33,545 nt of DNA from Deltaproteobacteria bacterium (GCA_022703375.1 JAKLDS010000025.1:1-33545); one strand, 5' to 3'; numbered from the stretch's first letter, positions 13,440 through 33,268 are shown. A program made the numbers and translations. The notes: generated by a model not told the origin, from the sequence alone.

Positions 13440-13440
<1 letters not shown>
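13410..13440. terminator. Terminator hairpin between the NifX gene and the convergent cytochrome gene
   Basis: AAGGAGCCTC (13410-13419) pairs with GAGGCCCCTT (13426-13435) with one mismatch around a six-base loop. It lies in the 44-base gap of a convergent gene pair. The T tract is weak on both strands, so efficiency is uncertain. Confidence 0.6.
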
Positions 13441-15516
<2,076 letters not shown>

Positions 15517-16022: not shown

Positions 16023-17378
16023 ATGAGCGTTCAGCAATCCCGAAAACAGCAAGGTTCTCTGCTCGGTGAACAGCAGAATATCATCCTTGATTCCATTGCC
16101 GACGGGGTTTTTACCGTGGACGGGGATTGGCGGATTACCTCATTCAACCGTGCTGCCGAAAACATAACCGGTGTTTCCCGCAAAGAGGCCATAGGCCAGC
16201 TCTGCAAAGATGTATTAAAAGCGGATACCTGTGAAAAAAACTGCTGCCTGCGGGCAACCATGAAAAACGGCGAACCAATTATCAATAAAAATGTATATAT
16301 CATTGACGCCGAAGGCAAAAGACGTCCCATCAGTATTTCCACGGCCCTGCTGCGTGACAGAAAAGGGAATCTTCTGGGGGCAGTGGAAACAATCCGCGAT
16401 ATGAGTACAGAGGAAAACCTGCGCAAAGCCATTTTGCAGAAATATGATTTTGCCGACATCGTTTCAAAAAACCATAGAATTATGGAATTGTTCAATATCC
16501 TGCCGGATATCGCGGAAAGCCCGAGTACTGTTTTGATTGAGGGGGAAACCGGTACGGGAAAAGAACTTGTCGCCCGCGCCATTCACAATTTAAGCCTGCG
16601 CAAAAAATATCCGTTTATCGCCGTTAATTGCAGTGCGCTGCCCGATACTCTGCTGGAATCGGAACTGTTCGGTTACAAAGCCGGAGCTTTTACCGATGCG
16701 AAAAAAGACAAGCCCGGCCGGTTTCGCCTGGCGGAAAACGGCACGCTGTTTCTGGATGAAATCGGAGATGTTACTCCCGCCATGCAGGTGAAACTGCTGC
16801 GGGTTTTGCAGGAAAAAACTTATGAACCGCTGGGAGCGACCGACAGCGTAGAACACAATGTCCGTATTATTGCGGCGACTAATAAAAATCTCGATGAGCA
16901 GGTCCGGCAGGGGCGTTTCCGGGAAGATTTGTTTTACCGGATTAATGTTTTCAAAATTTCTCTGCCGCCGCTGCGTGAGCGCATGGAGGATATCCCGCTG
17001 CTGATTGATCATTTTCTTGCCCGTTTCAATATCTTGCAGAAAAAAGACATCAAAGGTCTGAATGACGAGGCCATGTCCGTGCTGATGTCCTACAGTTATC
17101 CGGGAAACATTCGTGAACTGGCTAATATCATAGAAAGGGCTTTTATTCTGTGTAAAACAGGATTCATTGAAAAGAAACACCTGCCGGAAGCGCTTTTTTC
17201 CGATATCGGTATTCACGTACAGCAAATTACATCTTTGCGCGATATGGAATCTGCCTGCCTTATCAGTGCCCTCAAACAGAATAATTGGAACAGGCCGCAA
17301 ACAGCCGCAGCGCTTGGTATGCATAAAAGCACGCTGTATCGCAAAATCAAATCGCTGGGCATCAAGTTGCCGCAATAA
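16023..17378 (+). CDS. Sigma-54-dependent activator: PAS sensor, AAA+ domain, Fis-type HTH
   Basis: A 451-residue enhancer-binding protein. An N-terminal PAS domain (about 17-130) contains four cysteines (Cys61, Cys70, Cys74, Cys75), suited to redox or Fe-S/metal sensing. The AAA+ domain (about 148-375) has Walker A GETGTGKE (174-181), the sigma-54 contact loop GAFTDA (221-226), Walker B 'GTLFLDEIGD' and 'FREDLFYRI'. The C-terminal Fis-like HTH ('NRPQTAAALGMHKSTLYRKIKSLGI') reads DNA. It lacks a response-regulator receiver domain, so the signal is probably sensed directly. It lies immediately upstream of a sigma-54 promoter with half-sites, and a second such promoter lies 4 kb on. It resembles the dedicated activator of the Desulfovibrio orp operons in position and role. 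Confidence 0.92.
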   Translation: MSVQQSRKQQGSLLGEQQNIILDSIADGVFTVDGDWRITSFNRAAENITGVSRKEAIGQLCKDVLKADTCEKNCCLRATMKNGEPIINKNVYIIDAEGKRRPISISTALLRDRKGNLLGAVETIRDMSTEENLRKAILQKYDFADIVSKNHRIMELFNILPDIAESPSTVLIEGETGTGKELVARAIHNLSLRKKYPFIAVNCSALPDTLLESELFGYKAGAFTDAKKDKPGRFRLAENGTLFLDEIGDVTPAMQVKLLRVLQEKTYEPLGATDSVEHNVRIIAATNKNLDEQVRQGRFREDLFYRINVFKISLPPLRERMEDIPLLIDHFLARFNILQKKDIKGLNDEAMSVLMSYSYPGNIRELANIIERAFILCKTGFIEKKHLPEALFSDIGIHVQQITSLRDMESACLISALKQNNWNRPQTAAALGMHKSTLYRKIKSLGIKLPQ

Positions 17379-17507: not shown

Positions 17508-17522
17508 TGGCATCTTGCTTGC
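17508..17522 (+). promoter_or_regulatory. Sigma-54 (-24/-12) promoter 1
   Basis: TGGCATCTTGCTTGC keeps GG and GC at the required distance and matches consensus TGGCAC-N5-TTGC at all but one of the core positions. The predicted transcript start is near 17533, giving a leader of about 150 bases before the Tat-MBL gene. It lies in the 306-base gap after the activator gene; apart from the half-sites and this promoter, I see nothing else there. Confidence 0.8.
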
Positions 17523-17684
17523 AAATCAATTACCAATTTATTTTTACGGCAATAGTATTTTAAGAATTTGGATGTCGGGAAGTTGTTGTCGTTTGAGGGG
17601 ATAAGGAACAGAATGTTAAACACTTTTTCTAACGGACAGTTTCACAATGTTGATATTGTTCAAATTTAACCGAAGGAGGATGGT

Positions 17685-18755
17685 ATGGAACGAAGAGAAT
17701 TTTTAAAGGGTGTTGCCGCGACAGGCGCCGGAGTTGCGCTGTCGGGCGGGGCAGGTATGTTATCTATGGCGCAAGCTGCGCCGGGCAAAGAAGATTTCGG
17801 AGAGATTAAGGGTTTGAAAGTGCATTGCATCTCTGAGACAAGCTGGTTTGACAATGCGACTCTCGGTAAAGACATCAAGGCCTGCGGCGGAATCAACACA
17901 TATCAGTATAATGTTGATTGGAATGTGGAAAATCTTGGAGGCTATGCGGCGTTGGTGGAAGTGGAAGCGCTGGACGGCAAGATAACGAAATATCTGCTCG
18001 ACAGCGGCTGGAACACGGAATGGATGGATTATGTTTTTGCCAAAGACGGCATTGATAAAATGCTTAAAAGCAAAGAAATCAATACTTTAATAATTTCCCA
18101 TGACCACATTGACCACTATTACGGACTGGAGAGCACCCTGAAGCATCAACCCGACATCAAAATTTACTTTCCCGGCACTTCCATGAAAGAAAGTTTTGCG
18201 CTGCTCAAGGGAGCTGATTATTCGAAAAAACCAGGTCAGCCCAAAAACAAATATCCGCACAAAGGAGAGTTAATCGTAACCAAGACGAATCAGCTCTATA
18301 AACTGCAGGATGGAGCAGCGCTGGTTTTCTTTGATGCGCCGGCGACGCTTCAGGTAAGAGGCGAGAATGTTCTGTATTTCAAAGTTAAAGACAAGGGATT
18401 CGTGACCGTCACCGGTTGCTGCCATCCGGGCATTGTTACGTTATTCAATTATTCCCGCCGGAATTTCAAGGACGGCGATAAGAATTACGGTTGCTACGGC
18501 GGCCTGCATATTTCGCCCTTCGAGAACTGGGATCCGAAGATGGATGATCTGATTCAGGGTGTCAAGGCGCTGAATATGAAAAAAATCGCCTGTAACCACT
18601 GCACCGGCTGGATTTGGGCGGAAAAGGCTGCGCAGATGGGGCTTCCCATTGTCAAAGGCACCAACAAGAATCTTTCCTATAAAAAGACGGGAACGCTGTC
18701 CAAAGCAAAAACTTCCAACGTCTATCTGGGAAACGGCGACGATATTGTTTTCTAA
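17685..18755 (+). CDS. Tat-exported metallo-beta-lactamase-fold protein (COG1237-like)
   Basis: A 356-residue protein with a twin-arginine signal (ERREFLKG, then an Ala/Gly hydrophobic stretch to about residue 32), so it is exported folded and probably metal-loaded. The binuclear metal site SHDHIDH is at residues 138-144. Later blocks 'VTGCCHPGI', 'YGGLHISPF' and 'CNHCTGW' follow the order of the COG1237 group (dihydropterin/ribofuranosylaminobenzene phosphate synthase relatives: TGCSHAGI, GGFHL, HCTG), but those relatives are cytoplasmic. No substrate can be named. It is the first gene behind sigma-54 promoter 1, and AAGGAGGA precedes the start. A strong terminator-like hairpin separates it from the membrane-protein gene. 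Confidence 0.85.
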   Translation: MERREFLKGVAATGAGVALSGGAGMLSMAQAAPGKEDFGEIKGLKVHCISETSWFDNATLGKDIKACGGINTYQYNVDWNVENLGGYAALVEVEALDGKITKYLLDSGWNTEWMDYVFAKDGIDKMLKSKEINTLIISHDHIDHYYGLESTLKHQPDIKIYFPGTSMKESFALLKGADYSKKPGQPKNKYPHKGELIVTKTNQLYKLQDGAALVFFDAPATLQVRGENVLYFKVKDKGFVTVTGCCHPGIVTLFNYSRRNFKDGDKNYGCYGGLHISPFENWDPKMDDLIQGVKALNMKKIACNHCTGWIWAEKAAQMGLPIVKGTNKNLSYKKTGTLSKAKTSNVYLGNGDDIVF

Positions 18756-18800
18756 CGGAAGACAAAACGATTAATTCTTATTCATCATGTCTGTCAAGGG

Positions 18801-18854
18801 GGACGTCTCCTGCGGGAAATAATGGTTCTCGCAGGATCGTCCACCTGTTTTTTT
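18801..18854 (+). terminator. Intra-operon terminator or attenuating hairpin
   Basis: GGACG and TCCTGCG (18801-18814) pair with CGCAGGA and CGTCC (18830-18842), 12 pairs with a small bulge. A TTTTTTT run follows at 18848-18854. It lies between the Tat-MBL gene and the membrane-protein gene with no obvious new promoter after it. It may therefore end most transcripts and keep downstream expression low, or protect the 3' end of the first cistron. Confidence 0.65.
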
Positions 18855-18906
18855 GCCAGAATATTCGACATGGTTACGCATAAAAATATATTGGAGGTAT
18901 GCTGTT

Positions 18907-20154
18907 ATGAGTACGAATAATGCAGGTAATAACTGGCTGGCGACCAGAGAACTTATTCCGCGCTGGCCGGTAGCAATTTCCGGACTGGCCAATTTGGTTG
19001 CTCTGTTGATTGCCGTTTTTGCCATTTGGTGGATATTTTTTTCCAATACAGGAGTATTTAAACTTTACACGCCGCTTTTGGGTTTTTCTCTGGTAATCTG
19101 GACGCTGCTCATTATCCTTTGGCAGGCAGAACTCTTTGATTTCTGGCCGTTTCAACGCAAATTTTTGAATGATGCCAATCCGCTGGCCAAGGGCGCAGTA
19201 TTTACAGCAATAACAATTCTTCTGTATCTGATTCTGGTAATCGGCATCGTGTATTTTGTTATCGGCCAACTGGGCGTTACTTACTTCAACTGGCATAGTC
19301 TGATGAAGTACGGAGAAATCGGACAGGATGCCATTTCCACCAGAGAAACCGCGTCCTGGGCGATGATTTCGCTCTCAGTGCCGTTCTTTCTGATCAGCGT
19401 ATGGTTCATGCTTGGAATCGGAGACAATCTGTTTCCGGAGCTGAAGCAGCCCAAACGGGGTGTCGCCATGTTAGGTTTGATAGCTGTTATCGGCATAGTA
19501 CTCTACGCGATTTTCTTTCATCCACACATTGGTTCCATGTTTTATCCGAAGCAGATTTATGCGGCAGTTCCGCCCTGGTGGCAGGGATTTGCTCACACGA
19601 ACAGTTCGGAATTCAGTCTCGGCATACTTTTTTGCTCCGTTATCGGTGTTTTTTATGCTTTTCACATGTGGGATGGACAACCGTTCAACCTGGTGAAAAA
19701 ACAACCGTGGCGCTTCATTTTTTTCGCCGTAGTGAGTTTGATTCTCGGCTATGTTATTTTTCAGGGACAGCTTTTGATTTTCAATTACCTTTGGGATGAG
19801 GCATACGCTGGCGGGCAAAACGAAATGAATTTCGGCTGGCGCTACAGCCACACGGTTACGATGGCAAACTTTGTTCTTGTTATCGCCATCATTCAAAATG
19901 TCTTTTTCGGCAAGGCATACATAAAGCTTCCGGGCATCGTCCGCGGAATTATTAAAACAGTTGTGGCAGTTGCCGTGGGGCTTCTCTTTGCCTGGGCCTA
20001 TTACAAATGGGCGCCGTCATTGCTCGGAGTCTGTGAAGGAGTTTCCCATCCTTCGGAAAATGCCGCGGCATTTCTGATTATGGTCATTAACCTGCTCATG
20101 ATTCAGGATTACTTTATGGACGGCTGGCCGGGATATAAACTGAAAAAGAAGTGA
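18907..20154 (+). CDS. Polytopic membrane protein of unknown function (about 10 TM)
   Basis: A 415-residue protein with about ten hydrophobic spans, roughly at residues 20-44, 52-72, 92-115, 141-162, 176-197, 230-250, 258-280, 312-332, 340-362 and 380-400. It has no signal peptide. Aromatic-rich loops carry 'FFHPHIGSMFYP', 'AVPPWWQGFAHTNSSEF' and 'GWRYSHTV', with histidines that could bind metal or haem. I do not recognise the family; it shows no ABC, MFS or RND hallmark I can identify. The frame opens at 18853, but the ATG at 18907 has GGAGG at a suitable distance. It lies between the Tat-MBL gene and a gene with a metal-binding tail, so a membrane partner or transporter for the exported MBL protein is a guess. 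Confidence 0.85.
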   Translation: MSTNNAGNNWLATRELIPRWPVAISGLANLVALLIAVFAIWWIFFSNTGVFKLYTPLLGFSLVIWTLLIILWQAELFDFWPFQRKFLNDANPLAKGAVFTAITILLYLILVIGIVYFVIGQLGVTYFNWHSLMKYGEIGQDAISTRETASWAMISLSVPFFLISVWFMLGIGDNLFPELKQPKRGVAMLGLIAVIGIVLYAIFFHPHIGSMFYPKQIYAAVPPWWQGFAHTNSSEFSLGILFCSVIGVFYAFHMWDGQPFNLVKKQPWRFIFFAVVSLILGYVIFQGQLLIFNYLWDEAYAGGQNEMNFGWRYSHTVTMANFVLVIAIIQNVFFGKAYIKLPGIVRGIIKTVVAVAVGLLFAWAYYKWAPSLLGVCEGVSHPSENAAAFLIMVINLLMIQDYFMDGWPGYKLKKK

Positions 20155-20167
20155 TGCTGGCAGTATA

Positions 20168-20202
20168 TTTCCCGCAGGCCCGATATTGGAGCCTGCGGGA
20201 AA
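20168..20202. repeat. Perfect intercistronic hairpin
   Basis: TTTCCCGCAGGC (20168-20179) pairs perfectly with GCCTGCGGGAAA (20191-20202) around an 11-base loop. There is no T run on either strand, so it is more likely an mRNA-stabilising or processing element than a terminator. Its arm shares CCTGCGGGAAA with the hairpin at 18801. Confidence 0.65.
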
Positions 20203-20229
20203 AAAGTTATCGCCAAGGATGAAAATGCT

Positions 20230-21192
20230 ATGTCAAACAGGGAGCTTGTTGATTACATCTCTGCGACGGAAATCAAACTGAACGAGATATTTCAGCGCGT
20301 CTTTCAAAACGACGGGGCGCGCACGCACCTGGGTTTTTCTCAGATTTCTCAGGCTCCTCCCGATCAAGGCCTTCCCGGATGGTATCTGTGGTTTAAAGAC
20401 AGCAAAGGTCCTTTCTACATCGGAATTATCGGCGAAAATGTTTCTCTGCCGGATTCCTCTTTAAAAGAATCGGCACCGCGCGAACCGGTCAGGGGTGTCC
20501 AATTTGTCATTCGTTATTTTCCCGCTATTGAAGAAGATATTTTTGAATCTTTTTCCTGTTTTGAACAGCTATTCAGGATGAGTGAAAACATTGATGATAC
20601 GGGAGCGACTACTTTCGCGGGTGCGCGCAACATGCACGAGAGTTTTTATGTGGTTGGCTATATGACTATTTCGTTTAATTCCAATAATGATATTGATTTC
20701 TTCTGCCGGGCTCCGGAGAGATGGAGAACCTATCATACCGACGGGCTGGCTCTTCCTGATTCGGCAGGTGTAAAAAAACAAGTGCTTTTGCCGGGGGAAC
20801 GCGATCGGGATGTTGCAGGATGGAATTTAAGCCGTTATGCTTTTGATAAAATTATTTCCGCATACGGTTTTTTGATGCATCGCAAGCCTTCCATTGTCGG
20901 AGTATCAGCCTGTCCGTCAGTTGAATATTTCATAGATGAATCAAAAAATATTACGGAAGCAAAAAACGAACAACTGAAGGATTTTTTACTTTTAGTTTCC
21001 TTCAGCCAGAATATTAATTTGTGGGAGGCAGAGAAGATGCTTCAGGCGGAATCAAGGAATCTTATTGGTTTGTGGAAAGATCCGAAATCCATACCTCCGG
21101 CATGGCATAATGATTTATGGTGGTCGGTACCCGATCATCATTTTCATGACGACAGCTGCTATTTATGCAGTTGCTATCACGAACACCACTAG
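20230..21192 (+). CDS. Protein of unknown function with His/Cys-rich C-terminal tail
   Basis: A 320-residue soluble-looking protein with no signal peptide or membrane span. I do not recognise a family. The last 18 residues, HHFHDDSCYLCSCYHEHH, are a dense His/Cys stretch, a plausible soft-metal or Zn site. 'SACPSVEYF' near residue 235 adds another Cys. The body is rich in aromatic and acidic residues and has mixed alpha/beta character. It lies 75 bases after the membrane-protein gene and 23 before the next small gene, on the same strand, so it belongs to the sigma-54 operon beginning at 17685. The metal tail is consistent with a role in metal handling with the exported MBL protein, but this is inference. 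Confidence 0.8.
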   Translation: MSNRELVDYISATEIKLNEIFQRVFQNDGARTHLGFSQISQAPPDQGLPGWYLWFKDSKGPFYIGIIGENVSLPDSSLKESAPREPVRGVQFVIRYFPAIEEDIFESFSCFEQLFRMSENIDDTGATTFAGARNMHESFYVVGYMTISFNSNNDIDFFCRAPERWRTYHTDGLALPDSAGVKKQVLLPGERDRDVAGWNLSRYAFDKIISAYGFLMHRKPSIVGVSACPSVEYFIDESKNITEAKNEQLKDFLLLVSFSQNINLWEAEKMLQAESRNLIGLWKDPKSIPPAWHNDLWWSVPDHHFHDDSCYLCSCYHEHH

Positions 21193-21215
21193 TACTTCAG
21201 AGGGAGCAGGACAAT

Positions 21216-21524
21216 ATGACCGACCTGTCACGCCGAAACCTTTTTAATGATTATTTCTTTAAGAATACCATACGTTTGATAGCTGAGATTCAAAAAGTTT
21301 ATACCGATGTAAAAACTGAAGTTGCCGATGCCTGTGCCGAGACGAAAAACGATCTGGATTATTTTGATTCCTTTGAGTCAGCCTATCCTCTGATATCGGA
21401 GAGTTCTTATTTTCTGGATGATGAAGTGGCGCGCCTGAAAATAGATACCAAAGATATGACCCAGCTGGAAATTGTCAAAGAAATATACAAAAGAAACAAA
21501 CAGAATAATAACGAAGAACTATAA
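21216..21524 (+). CDS. Small acidic protein of unknown function
   Basis: A 102-residue protein, acidic and predicted helical, with no recognised family. The N-terminus MTDLSRRNLFNDYF resembles a twin-arginine motif, but no hydrophobic stretch follows, so export is unlikely. A single Cys lies near residue 38 ('VADACAETKND'). The frame opens at 21165, but the ATG at 21216 has AGGGAG upstream and lies beyond the preceding stop. It is the last gene of the operon starting at 17685, and is followed by a 353-base control region. Confidence 0.7.
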   Translation: MTDLSRRNLFNDYFFKNTIRLIAEIQKVYTDVKTEVADACAETKNDLDYFDSFESAYPLISESSYFLDDEVARLKIDTKDMTQLEIVKEIYKRNKQNNNEEL

Positions 21525-21877: not shown

Positions 21878-22276
21878 ATGAAAATAGCCCTGTCCGTATT
21901 CCACGATTCTATTTCCACCGTATTTGATGCGGCGGAGCAACTTTTAGTAGTGGAGACGGATGAAACAAACGGGCAAAAACGGAAGTTGGTCAGGCTTACC
22001 GCAGCGGATGTGGTGGGCAGAGTAAGCCAGCTGAAAGAGGAGGGAATTGATATCTTGATTTGCGGCGCCATTTCCCGGCCAATGCAGGTTGCCATAGCGG
22101 CAAAGGGAATTGTCGTTTATCCTTTTATTCGCGGTTCCGTCGAATCGTTGATTACGGCTTATTTAAGCGGCAATCTGGAAAAACCTCTTTACGCTCTGCC
22201 CGGCTGCCACAGGCAATTCGGTGCGGCAGGCGGCGGCGGGCGAAGGAATCACGGCAGGAGATGTCGCTTGCGGTAA
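21878..22276 (+). CDS. NifX/NifB-family protein with Gly/Arg-rich tail
   Basis: A 132-residue DiNase-family protein. It starts MKIALSVFHDSISTVFDAAEQLLVV and has 'ILICGAISRPMQVAIAAKGI' in the cofactor-pocket region. The C-terminal tail after 'LPGC' is Gly/Arg-rich with one more Cys (...GRRNHGRRCRLR). The His-Gly-His-Cys signature common near the N-terminus of paralogs (FGHC) is replaced by DAAE, so it may hold a different ligand or act as a partner. It is the first gene behind sigma-54 promoter 2. The frame opens at 21830, but the ATG at 21878 gives the family N-terminus and has AGGAAAAGAG upstream. Confidence 0.85.
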   Translation: MKIALSVFHDSISTVFDAAEQLLVVETDETNGQKRKLVRLTAADVVGRVSQLKEEGIDILICGAISRPMQVAIAAKGIVVYPFIRGSVESLITAYLSGNLEKPLYALPGCHRQFGAAGGGGRRNHGRRCRLR

Positions 22277-31114: not shown

Positions 31115-32016
31115 AAGAATTGGTTGTTATCAGCGGCAAGGGGGGAACAGGCAAAACAAGCATTACAGCTTCCTTTGCCGTGCTAGCGGGAAAAGTCGTT
31201 GTATGCGACTGCGATGTTGACGCCGCGGATTTGCATCTTGTTTTATCGCCGCAAATCCACCGGCAGGAAGATTTCTATTCCGGCCATCTGGCCATGATCA
31301 ATCAGGAAAAATGCGTCGCCTGCGGCTTATGCGCGGAGTATTGCCGATTTGATGCGGTCAAAAAGAAAATAAACGCCGCCGGAAATGAGGAATATTTAAT
31401 TGATACCGTATCCTGTGAAGGCTGCGGTGTTTGCGTGAGGTTTTGTCCGGCAAATGCTATTGATTTTCCCGAAAGCCTGTGCGGTCAGTGGTTTGTTTCC
31501 GATACCCGCTGCGGGCCGATGGTGCATGCGAAACTGGGTATAGCCGCGGAAAATTCCGGCAAGCTTGTTTCCACAGTGCGCCGGGAGGCAAAAGATATTG
31601 CAGAAAAAGAAAATTATCCTCTGATCATTGTGGACGGGCCGCCGGGAATAGGCTGTCCGGTAATTGCATCGCTTACCGGTGCCTCTCATGTGTTAATAGT
31701 GACCGAGCCTACCGTTTCGGGAGAGCATGATATGGAGCGGGTTTTGTCATTAACAAATCATTTTCAAATTCCGGCGGCGGTTTGTGTCAACAAGTGGGAT
31801 ATCAACCCTGTCAAGACAGAGTCAATTGAGCAAAAAGCTCTCGCAGCAAAAGCAACTATTGCCGGGAGGATTTGCTACGACCGTGCGGTTACCCGCGCGC
31901 AAATACAAAAAAAAGCGGTTGTGGAAATCGCTGCACCCAGCGCCGACGACATTCGTCAGCTTTGGATAAATCTAAATCTTCAGGAGGCAGTAAATATAAA
32001 TGGAAAAAATCATTGA
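31111..32016 (+). CDS. MinD/ParA-superfamily ATPase with inserted 2x[4Fe-4S] ferredoxin domain (2)
   Basis: A 301-residue paralog of the ATPase at 26738. Walker [11 protein letters not shown] is at residues 8-17, and 'VDGPPGIGCPV' and 'VTEPTVSGEHD' are the following nucleotide blocks. The ferredoxin insert carries Cys68/71/74/78 and Cys102/105/108/112, with a longer loop between the two cluster groups than in paralog 1. The two resemble the paired ORP ATPases DVU2103/DVU2104 of Desulfovibrio. It overlaps the J-domain gene by 4 bases and the IscU-Mrp gene by 17 bases. Confidence 0.92.
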   Translation: MKELVVISGKGGTGKTSITASFAVLAGKVVVCDCDVDAADLHLVLSPQIHRQEDFYSGHLAMINQEKCVACGLCAEYCRFDAVKKKINAAGNEEYLIDTVSCEGCGVCVRFCPANAIDFPESLCGQWFVSDTRCGPMVHAKLGIAAENSGKLVSTVRREAKDIAEKENYPLIIVDGPPGIGCPVIASLTGASHVLIVTEPTVSGEHDMERVLSLTNHFQIPAAVCVNKWDINPVKTESIEQKALAAKATIAGRICYDRAVTRAQIQKKAVVEIAAPSADDIRQLWINLNLQEAVNINGKNH

Positions 32017-33268
32017 ATTGGCAAGTCTTTGCTCGAAAGCCGCTAAACATGCGCAAGACCCGTATAACATGGGAGTACTGGAAAAATTCAACGGCCACGC
32101 CAAAGTTACCGGGCCCTGTGGGGACACCATGGAATTTTGGCTTGATGTGAAAAACGGAAAAATAGAAAAGATTTCCTTTATTACGGACGGATGTACTCCT
32201 TCGCTCGCGAGCGGGAGTATGGCGACATGTCTGGCGCAGGGAAAAACCATCGCGGAAGCAAAAGCTATCACGCAGAAGGACATCCTCAGGGAGTTGGGCG
32301 GTTTGCCTGAAGACGGCGAACACTGTGCGCTATTGGCCGCCAATACGCTGAAAGCGGCATGTGAGAACTACGAAAAAGAAACAAAGACAGGGAGCGCAAA
32401 GAAGACGTGCGATACCTGCGGTGACGCCACCTGCTCGGCGGCAAAAAAGCGCAAGGAAGAATCGCCGGAGGAATTTGCCGACCGGCGTAAACTGCAGTCG
32501 AGGCTTTGCCGCATCAAACATAAGATTGTCGTACTTTCGGGTAAGGGCGGCGTCGGCAAAAGCACGGTTGCCGTCAATCTGGCCACAGAGCTCGCCTTGT
32601 CGGGTCTTGGCGTCGGTCTTTTGGATGTTGATATCCACGGCCCCAGTATTCCGACGATGCTCGGTTTGGAAAACCAGACGCTGACAGGAACGGAAGAGGG
32701 TTTAATGCCGGTTTCATTCGGAATGATGAAAATAATGTCAATCGGTTTTATGCTGCGTAACGCTGATGATGCCGTCATCTGGCGCGGTCCCATGAAAATG
32801 GGAGTAATCAAGCAGTTCCTTGCCGATGTGGAATGGGGCGATTTGGATTATCTGATTGTTGATGCTCCTCCCGGGACAGGCGACGAGCCTCTTTCTTTAT
32901 GCCAGTTGATTCAACCGCTCGACGGTGCGGTCATTGTCACCACACCGCAGAAAGTAGCGGCTGTTGATGTGCGCAAATCCATCAGCTTCTGCCGGCAATT
33001 GCAGGTGCCGGTGCTGGGTGTTATCGAAAACATGAGCGGTTTTGTCTGCCCGAAATGCGGCGAGCTCACACAAATTCTGCCGTCCGGAGGCGGTAGGAAA
33101 ATATCCGACGACATGAAGGTTCCTTTTCTGGGAGCTATCCCGATGGATCCCGCCATTGCCCAATCGGGCGACAGTGGACGTGTTTTCGTTTACCATGAAG
33201 GGGCAAACCCGACGGCGAAAATCATGCAGGAAATAATTAAACAGATTATTAAACAAATTGGCAACTAA
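32000..33268 (+). CDS. IscU/NifU-like scaffold fused to Mrp/NBP35 Fe-S carrier ATPase
   Basis: A 422-residue fusion. Residues 1-125 are an IscU-type scaffold with all three cluster-ligand cysteines (Cys40 in GPCGD, Cys65 in DGCTPS, Cys109 in GEHCAL) and 'GSMATCLAQGKTIAEA'. A Cys-rich linker (Cys137, Cys140, Cys145) follows, then the Mrp/ApbC/NBP35 ATPase (about 172-422). This has Walker A GKGGVGKST (181-189), 'VDAPPGTGDEPLS' and the cluster-bridging CPKC (Cys350, Cys353). It would build and carry a cluster within one polypeptide, with ATP-driven release to a target. AGGAGG precedes the ATG inside the overlap with the previous gene. It matches the Mrp-type gene next to orp in anaerobes. Confidence 0.93.
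   Translation: MEKIIELASLCSKAAKHAQDPYNMGVLEKFNGHAKVTGPCGDTMEFWLDVKNGKIEKISFITDGCTPSLASGSMATCLAQGKTIAEAKAITQKDILRELGGLPEDGEHCALLAANTLKAACENYEKETKTGSAKKTCDTCGDATCSAAKKRKEESPEEFADRRKLQSRLCRIKHKIVVLSGKGGVGKSTVAVNLATELALSGLGVGLLDVDIHGPSIPTMLGLENQTLTGTEEGLMPVSFGMMKIMSIGFMLRNADDAVIWRGPMKMGVIKQFLADVEWGDLDYLIVDAPPGTGDEPLSLCQLIQPLDGAVIVTTPQKVAAVDVRKSISFCRQLQVPVLGVIENMSGFVCPKCGELTQILPSGGGRKISDDMKVPFLGAIPMDPAIAQSGDSGRVFVYHEGANPTAKIMQEIIKQIIKQIGN

Follow-up and report, generated by a model that had tools for sequence, protein, structure and literature searches.

A conserved envelope gene module linking a Tat-exported metallo-beta-lactamase-fold hydrolase, a ten-helix membrane protein and a partner domain of COG0523 GTPases

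A stretch of 33,545 nucleotides from a Deltaproteobacteria bacterium (the window) carries, at positions 17508-21524 of the plus strand, a set of four genes whose members are found side by side in many anaerobic bacteria. The set points to a conserved envelope module, a self-contained metal-dependent system. Our preferred reading, to which we assign a probability of roughly 40%, is that a 10-TM membrane protein and a periplasmic hydrolase of the metallo-beta-lactamase (MBL) fold make up an envelope metalloprotein unit with a maturation factor of its own, the third gene product, P3. As a system the module is apparently new to description; literature searches on the topics of metallochaperone GTPases, MBLs, TonB and pseudo-pentamers returned no account of it.

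All four ORFs are open, at the positions first described. They encode a Tat-exported MBL-fold hydrolase (gene 1, 17685-18755, 356 aa), a 10-TM membrane protein (gene 2, 18907-20154, starting at the ATG at 18907, 415 aa), the His/Cys-tailed P3 (gene 3, 20230-21192, 320 aa), and a small protein, P4 (gene 4, 21216-21524, starting at the ATG at 21216, 102 aa), for which an alternative longer ORF starting at 21165 would overlap gene 3. At the head of the set lies a sigma-54-type promoter element of the GG-N10-GC type, TGGCATCTTGCTTGCA (17508-17523, plus strand); the window contains this one match, where 0.16 would be expected. The four-gene layout behind a sigma-54 site given in a preliminary description of the region is thus confirmed, and the same set is conserved at many other loci. 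The wider unit also takes in the activator gene upstream (16023-17378) and a PF02579 gene downstream (21878-22276). Between genes 1 and 2, a search for terminator-like sites found a terminator- or attenuator-like hairpin (18797-18854, plus strand, with a stem at about 18797-18846 followed by seven T residues) in a region, 18760-18906, with an RNA fold z of -2.45, and between genes 2 and 3 RNA folding predicted a strong hairpin with no T run (20168-20202, plus strand) in a region, 20155-20229, with a z of -4.71. Because of these hairpins in the two gaps, the module may be expressed in a graded manner and not as one uniform transcript. The two stems are alike in sequence, CCTGCGGGAAA in the first hairpin and GCCTGCGGGAAA in the second.

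The preliminary description had named a scattered, non-conserved occurrence of the four genes as evidence against a new system, and this was checked in a sample of 395 genomes across one phylum. The clade of 10-TM proteins to which the window's copy belongs is present in 19 of the 395 genomes and the P3 domain in 21, with all 19 having both (co-occurrence P 1.8e-30, 14 families). The genes for the MBL, the 10-TM protein and P3 are adjacent at nearly every locus with an intact contig, and the gene for P4 joins them at many; gene calls at the sister loci were mechanical, and a few loci are cut by contig ends. Three arrangements were found, namely form A, that of the window (MBL-10TM-P3-P4), form A' (MBL-10TM-P4-P3), and form B (10TM-MBL-P3::GTPase), in which P4 lies upstream at some loci. 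In a tree of the 10-TM proteins, A, A' and B each form one well-supported clade, matching the stand-alone or fused state of P3, and the architecture of P3 is therefore linked to the membrane protein it accompanies. The window's genome has both form A (C39) and form B (C40), and the genome containing L007 has forms A and B about 20 kb apart. The genes are thus conserved as a set and do not occur scattered. The module is absent from seven other sampled genomes of the window's own family, so its spread is patchy. A broader search for the form-A membrane protein relied on patterns that pick up only its close relatives; no 10-TM homologues were found in plasmids, and no P3 was found in viral contigs.

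One indication of a metal-related role, beyond the His/Cys tail, is the company kept by P3. The window's copy ends in the C-terminal tail HHFHDDSCYLCSCYHEHH, as first described, reaches the cut-off of no family in Pfam or NCBIfam, and has no convincing counterpart among solved folds, its predicted model having a pLDDT of 87.2. We did not accept kinship with the START/aromatase-cyclase helix-grip proteins, the best rows of which reached a Z of at most 4.5, and the fold search gave no match to a known chaperone. At the form B sister loci, P3 is followed within one protein by cobW and CobW_C domains with both a CxCC motif and a P-loop, the closest PDB relative of this GTPase being E. coli YjiA. 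One such fusion lies in the window's own genome, in a form B module together with a 10-TM protein and an MBL (G000:C40:14400-20400; L042:3417-9372); its CobW GTPase matches cobW at 6e-40 in Pfam and is the sole strong cobW match in that genome. The window's P3 has neither a P-loop nor a CxCC motif, both of which are found only in its fused relatives, and P3 is a partner domain of the COG0523/CobW GTPase, not a member of the family.

Known members of COG0523, whose hallmark is CxCC, are metallochaperones that act in zinc homeostasis, in the synthesis of cobalamin and in the maturation of nitrile hydratase (PMC2770081, PMC9164220). Like the COG0523 (G3E) proteins YjiA, CobW, ZigA and Nha3, the form B protein has cobW and CobW_C domains, CxCC and a P-loop, and its gene sits beside that of a putative metalloprotein client. 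Unlike them, it carries an extra N-terminal domain, P3, with no recognized relative; moreover, the form A operon has no GTPase, and the client is likely a membrane protein or a Tat-exported enzyme. The L005 genome, which has form A, gave no full COG0523-type match. As such, P3 can work without a GTPase. The HFH...CxC pattern of the tail is conserved in eight of the nine stand-alone P3 copies aligned; in the sole A' copy aligned, that of L039, the tail is reduced and ends in ...GVLPC, the three other A' loci lying outside this comparison. That a single maturation step can come in two forms is known from the nitrile hydratases, of which the Fe-type enzyme uses the GTPase Nha3 and the sister Co-type enzyme a GTP-independent activator (PMC9164220); P3 likewise occurs in two forms.

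The product of gene 1 had been described as an exported metal hydrolase, a description upheld by the presence of a Tat signal and a complete set of metal ligands. Its N-terminus (MERREFLKG...AQA) matches TAT_signal (PF10518) in Pfam at 22.9 bits against a cut-off of 22.7 and combines a twin-arginine motif with a hydrophobic core of hydropathy 1.31, such cores ranging from 1.2 to 1.7 among the MBL signals. The HxHxDH motif and later His metal ligands of the MBL superfamily are all in place, H139xH141xD143H144, H247, H275 and H305 being invariant in the gene 1 homologues (n = 22). The Lactamase_B score of the window's MBL is 20.8 bits, under the Pfam cut-off of 22.7, and that of the contig 40 paralogue, 28.1, is above it. 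Profile searches of the PDB retrieved 7dck and 2p4z (6.5e-21). Gene 1 is similar to these and to Tm1679-type MBL hydrolases in its fold, its HxHxDH motif and its later His ligands, and the GC(C/A)HxGI and GG(L/F)H motifs align with 7dck. In contrast to these hydrolases, to which the match is distant, the gene 1 product is Tat-exported and tied to the 10-TM/P3 module.

P4 also begins with a twin-arginine motif, SRRxxF, which is invariant in the alignment. However, the hydropathy after this motif is mostly about 0 to 0.4 (0.39), below the MBL range. We therefore rejected P4 as an ordinary Tat substrate, the hydrophobic core being absent despite the RR motif, and judge from its sequence that it is probably not exported. 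P4 holds on to the invariant motif despite probably staying unexported.

For the membrane protein, Pfam and NCBIfam gave no family above cut-off and PDB profile searches gave no relative. Homology to a known, unrelated transporter, the other finding named beforehand as speaking against a new system, was looked for in the same searches and none appeared. AlphaFold, run once per protein on alignments of 15-31 sequences, produced a model with ten helices (pLDDT 87.7, pTM 0.89). No Foldseek match below 0.07 was obtained with this model, and GPCR rows in the fold search were dismissed as common helical-bundle noise. The best structural match was 8qkd, a barrel designed de novo as one chain with five helices on the inside (Z 8.0 over 244 residues, a value that falls within the noise for helical proteins). 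The loops joining the helix pairs have a common motif, WPFxxLxxPxxxG, and in a profile comparison of pieces with off-register controls the two-helix repeats were in register for 1-5 (P about 1e-6) and 4-5 (P about 5e-5), with repeats 2 and 3 non-significant by sequence. The protein is thus apparently built of two-helix repeats. A pseudo-fivefold barrel is a suggestion drawn from the model, since the Z to 8qkd may reflect a common arrangement and repeats 2 and 3 are non-significant.

With its five predicted two-helix repeats, its N-in topology (by the positive-inside count) and a ring-like arrangement of inner and outer helices, gene 2 would resemble 8qkd and the pentameric two-helix channels CorA and MscL. 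Unlike the pentameric channels, however, it is a single chain, not five, and no sequence relation to the channels or to the designed barrels was found. Gene 2 was also rejected as a CorA-type metal channel, there being no GMN in its sequence and no CorA match in Pfam. E147, H205 and H207 are each kept in 22 or 23 of the 23 members of the P3-linked 10-TM clade; a far 10-TM clade has neither these residues nor P3, and H315 is common to both clades. Judging from the topology, all four conserved residues should face the periplasm. It is tempting to propose that gene 2 represents a new kind of membrane metalloprotein, in which one chain folds into a pseudo-pentameric barrel of ten helices with a metal site at its periplasmic mouth, a Tat-exported hydrolase is the partner, and a new chaperone domain, P3, matures the protein with or without a GTPase; we regard this as a tentative and somewhat unlikely proposal.

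The two clades of 10-TM proteins also bear on what P3 might serve. Tat-signal relatives of the MBL are present in genomes that yielded no P3 in the search (L121-L125). Loading and export of Tat-type MBLs therefore do not depend on P3 in general, and P3 as a chaperone solely for the MBL is disfavored. Since, in addition, the far 10-TM clade comes without P3 and without E147, H205 and H207, the 10-TM protein, or the 10-TM/MBL pair, is the likeliest client of P3. By this correlation, P3 follows the 10-TM protein and its Glu/His set, not the hydrolase alone.

In the maturation reading that we prefer, gene 2 would encode an inner-membrane protein whose ten helices, arranged as two-helix repeats, probably form a pseudo-fivefold bundle. 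A conserved Glu/His site would lie on the periplasmic side, where the metallohydrolase of gene 1, once exported by Tat, would act alongside the membrane protein. P3 would be a cytosolic metallochaperone that matures the 10-TM protein or the 10-TM/MBL pair by delivering metal. It would bring along a COG0523 GTPase of its own in form B and work alone in form A, where the C-terminal His/Cys tail would possibly stand in as the metal site. P4, with its Tat-type RR motif, would be a small partner protein. Counting against such maturation is the placement of the partners, the Glu/His residues of the 10-TM protein being periplasmic by topology and P3 being expected in the cytosol; delivery would therefore have to precede or accompany the insertion of the 10-TM protein into the membrane, or else pass through that protein. 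The reduced tail of the A' copy, the presence of H315 in the far clade and the lack of a known chaperone among the matches to P3 also count against this reading.

We consider it unlikely that the module is instead a catabolic or detoxifying unit, in which the periplasmic MBL would hydrolyze an organic compound to which the PAS activator responds, the 10-TM protein would import the product or an acid, and P3 and the GTPase would merely metallate the MBL. Such a unit would fit the L125 locus, where a Tat-type MBL relative adjoins a branched-chain-type ABC importer and an acyl-CoA ligase, as well as the far 10-TM relatives, which in at least L054 and L056 lie amid acyl-CoA genes, and the PAS and GntR-type regulators of the modules. 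However, P3 as a metallating factor for the MBL is hard to square with the MBLs of genomes without P3, the far 10-TM clade has neither P3 nor the Glu/His set, and no catabolic enzyme common to the module loci was seen.

Uptake of a metal or metallophore, in which a TonB receptor of the outer membrane would admit a metal complex, the exported MBL would cleave or release it, the 10-TM barrel would pass the metal across the inner membrane, and P3 or P3-GTPase would receive it in the cytosol, is in our estimation improbable. Genes for ExbB, ExbD and TonB lie directly 3' of P3-GTPase in five form B loci of two families, recognized by Pfam matches in L044 and L045 and as homologues in L043, L046 and L048, and these genes speak for an uptake role. 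The P3-CobW fusion and the nearby PF02579 genes would suit such a role, as would a pore-like arrangement with five inner helices as in 8qkd, the Z of 8.0 to which lies within noise. On the other hand, no TonB-dependent receptor was recognized among the large neighbors scanned, most modules have no TonB genes, and the regulators are sigma-54 PAS activators and GntR-type proteins, not Fur- or Zur-like.

The gene upstream of the promoter encodes a sigma-54 enhancer-binding protein of PAS-AAA-Fis architecture with no receiver domain (16023-17378, plus strand; Pfam Sigma54_activat 1.2e-68, PAS, HTH_8), which probably regulates the module. In the maturation reading, the module would be induced on demand, since a PAS-type sigma-54 activator would switch it on. 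Homologues of the activator lie beside the sister modules L005, L007, L009, L038, L051, L133 and L140, and sigma-54 sites scoring at least 20.9, as good as that of the window, precede 5 of 21 modules, compared with a frequency of 0.18% among 400-bp background stretches (P 3.5e-10). The PF02579 (Nitro_FeMo-Co) gene downstream of P4 (21878-22276, plus strand, Pfam 7e-9) has counterparts at several module loci. Such a gene is the first in the sister operons L005, L006 and L037, each under a sigma-54 site, and another sigma-54 site heads the PF02579 gene of L133. The window's activator carries GAFTDA, a motif present in six of the nine activators compared, and activators with this variant, like PF02579 genes, recur in both module forms. 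The GAFTDA variant has been reported for DVU2106, the regulator of the orp operon in Desulfovibrio vulgaris (PMC4641369).

The preliminary description had proposed that the module is a periplasm-to-cytoplasm metal or cofactor-precursor pathway serving the ORP-type cofactor and likely answering to the ORP activator. Its metal theme is partly supported, by the P3-CobW/COG0523 fusion with CxCC, the PF02579 genes and the TonB, ExbB and ExbD genes; the ORP link finds no support apart from the GAFTDA likeness of the activator to DVU2106 and the neighboring PF02579 genes. MrpORP scored above cut-off in 3 of the 19 module genomes versus 71 of the 395 overall, that is, with no enrichment, and we dropped the association of MrpORP with the module. 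We know of no molybdenum role for COG0523 GTPases. A route importing or making a precursor of the ORP-type Mo-Cu cofactor is thus very improbable, given also that at several module loci the searched stretch lacks a PF02579 gene and that COG0523 GTPases have their roles with Zn, Co and Fe (PMC9164220), despite the PF02579 genes and GAFTDA activators beside several modules. The module shares with the orp clusters a GAFTDA activator, a sigma-54 promoter and nearby PF02579 proteins and differs from them in occurring mostly in genomes without MrpORP above cut-off; none of its four proteins was found described in an orp context in the literature searched. The window itself contains a gene for an Mrp-type ATPase (32000-33268, plus strand) that scores 388 bits, under the MrpORP cut-off, and has about 150 residues N-terminal to the Mrp domain.

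The module ties two unnamed families, the 10-TM protein and P3, firmly together as genetic partners and gives them a biochemical theme that is open to test. A review of NTPase metallochaperones counts the question of which clients COG0523 GTPases serve among those still to be solved and proposes gene clusters as an approach (PMC9164220), and the module supplies candidate clients of this kind. The role of GTP hydrolysis is directly testable, since versions with and without the GTPase occur naturally, both of them together in the window's genome and in another (G396).

Elsewhere in the window, on the minus strand (13440-14576), a single open frame fuses a cytochrome b561-type membrane domain (PF01292, 6.8e-16) with MoaE (PF02391, 1.9e-14), an unusual pairing of a respiratory subunit with a molybdopterin synthase domain.
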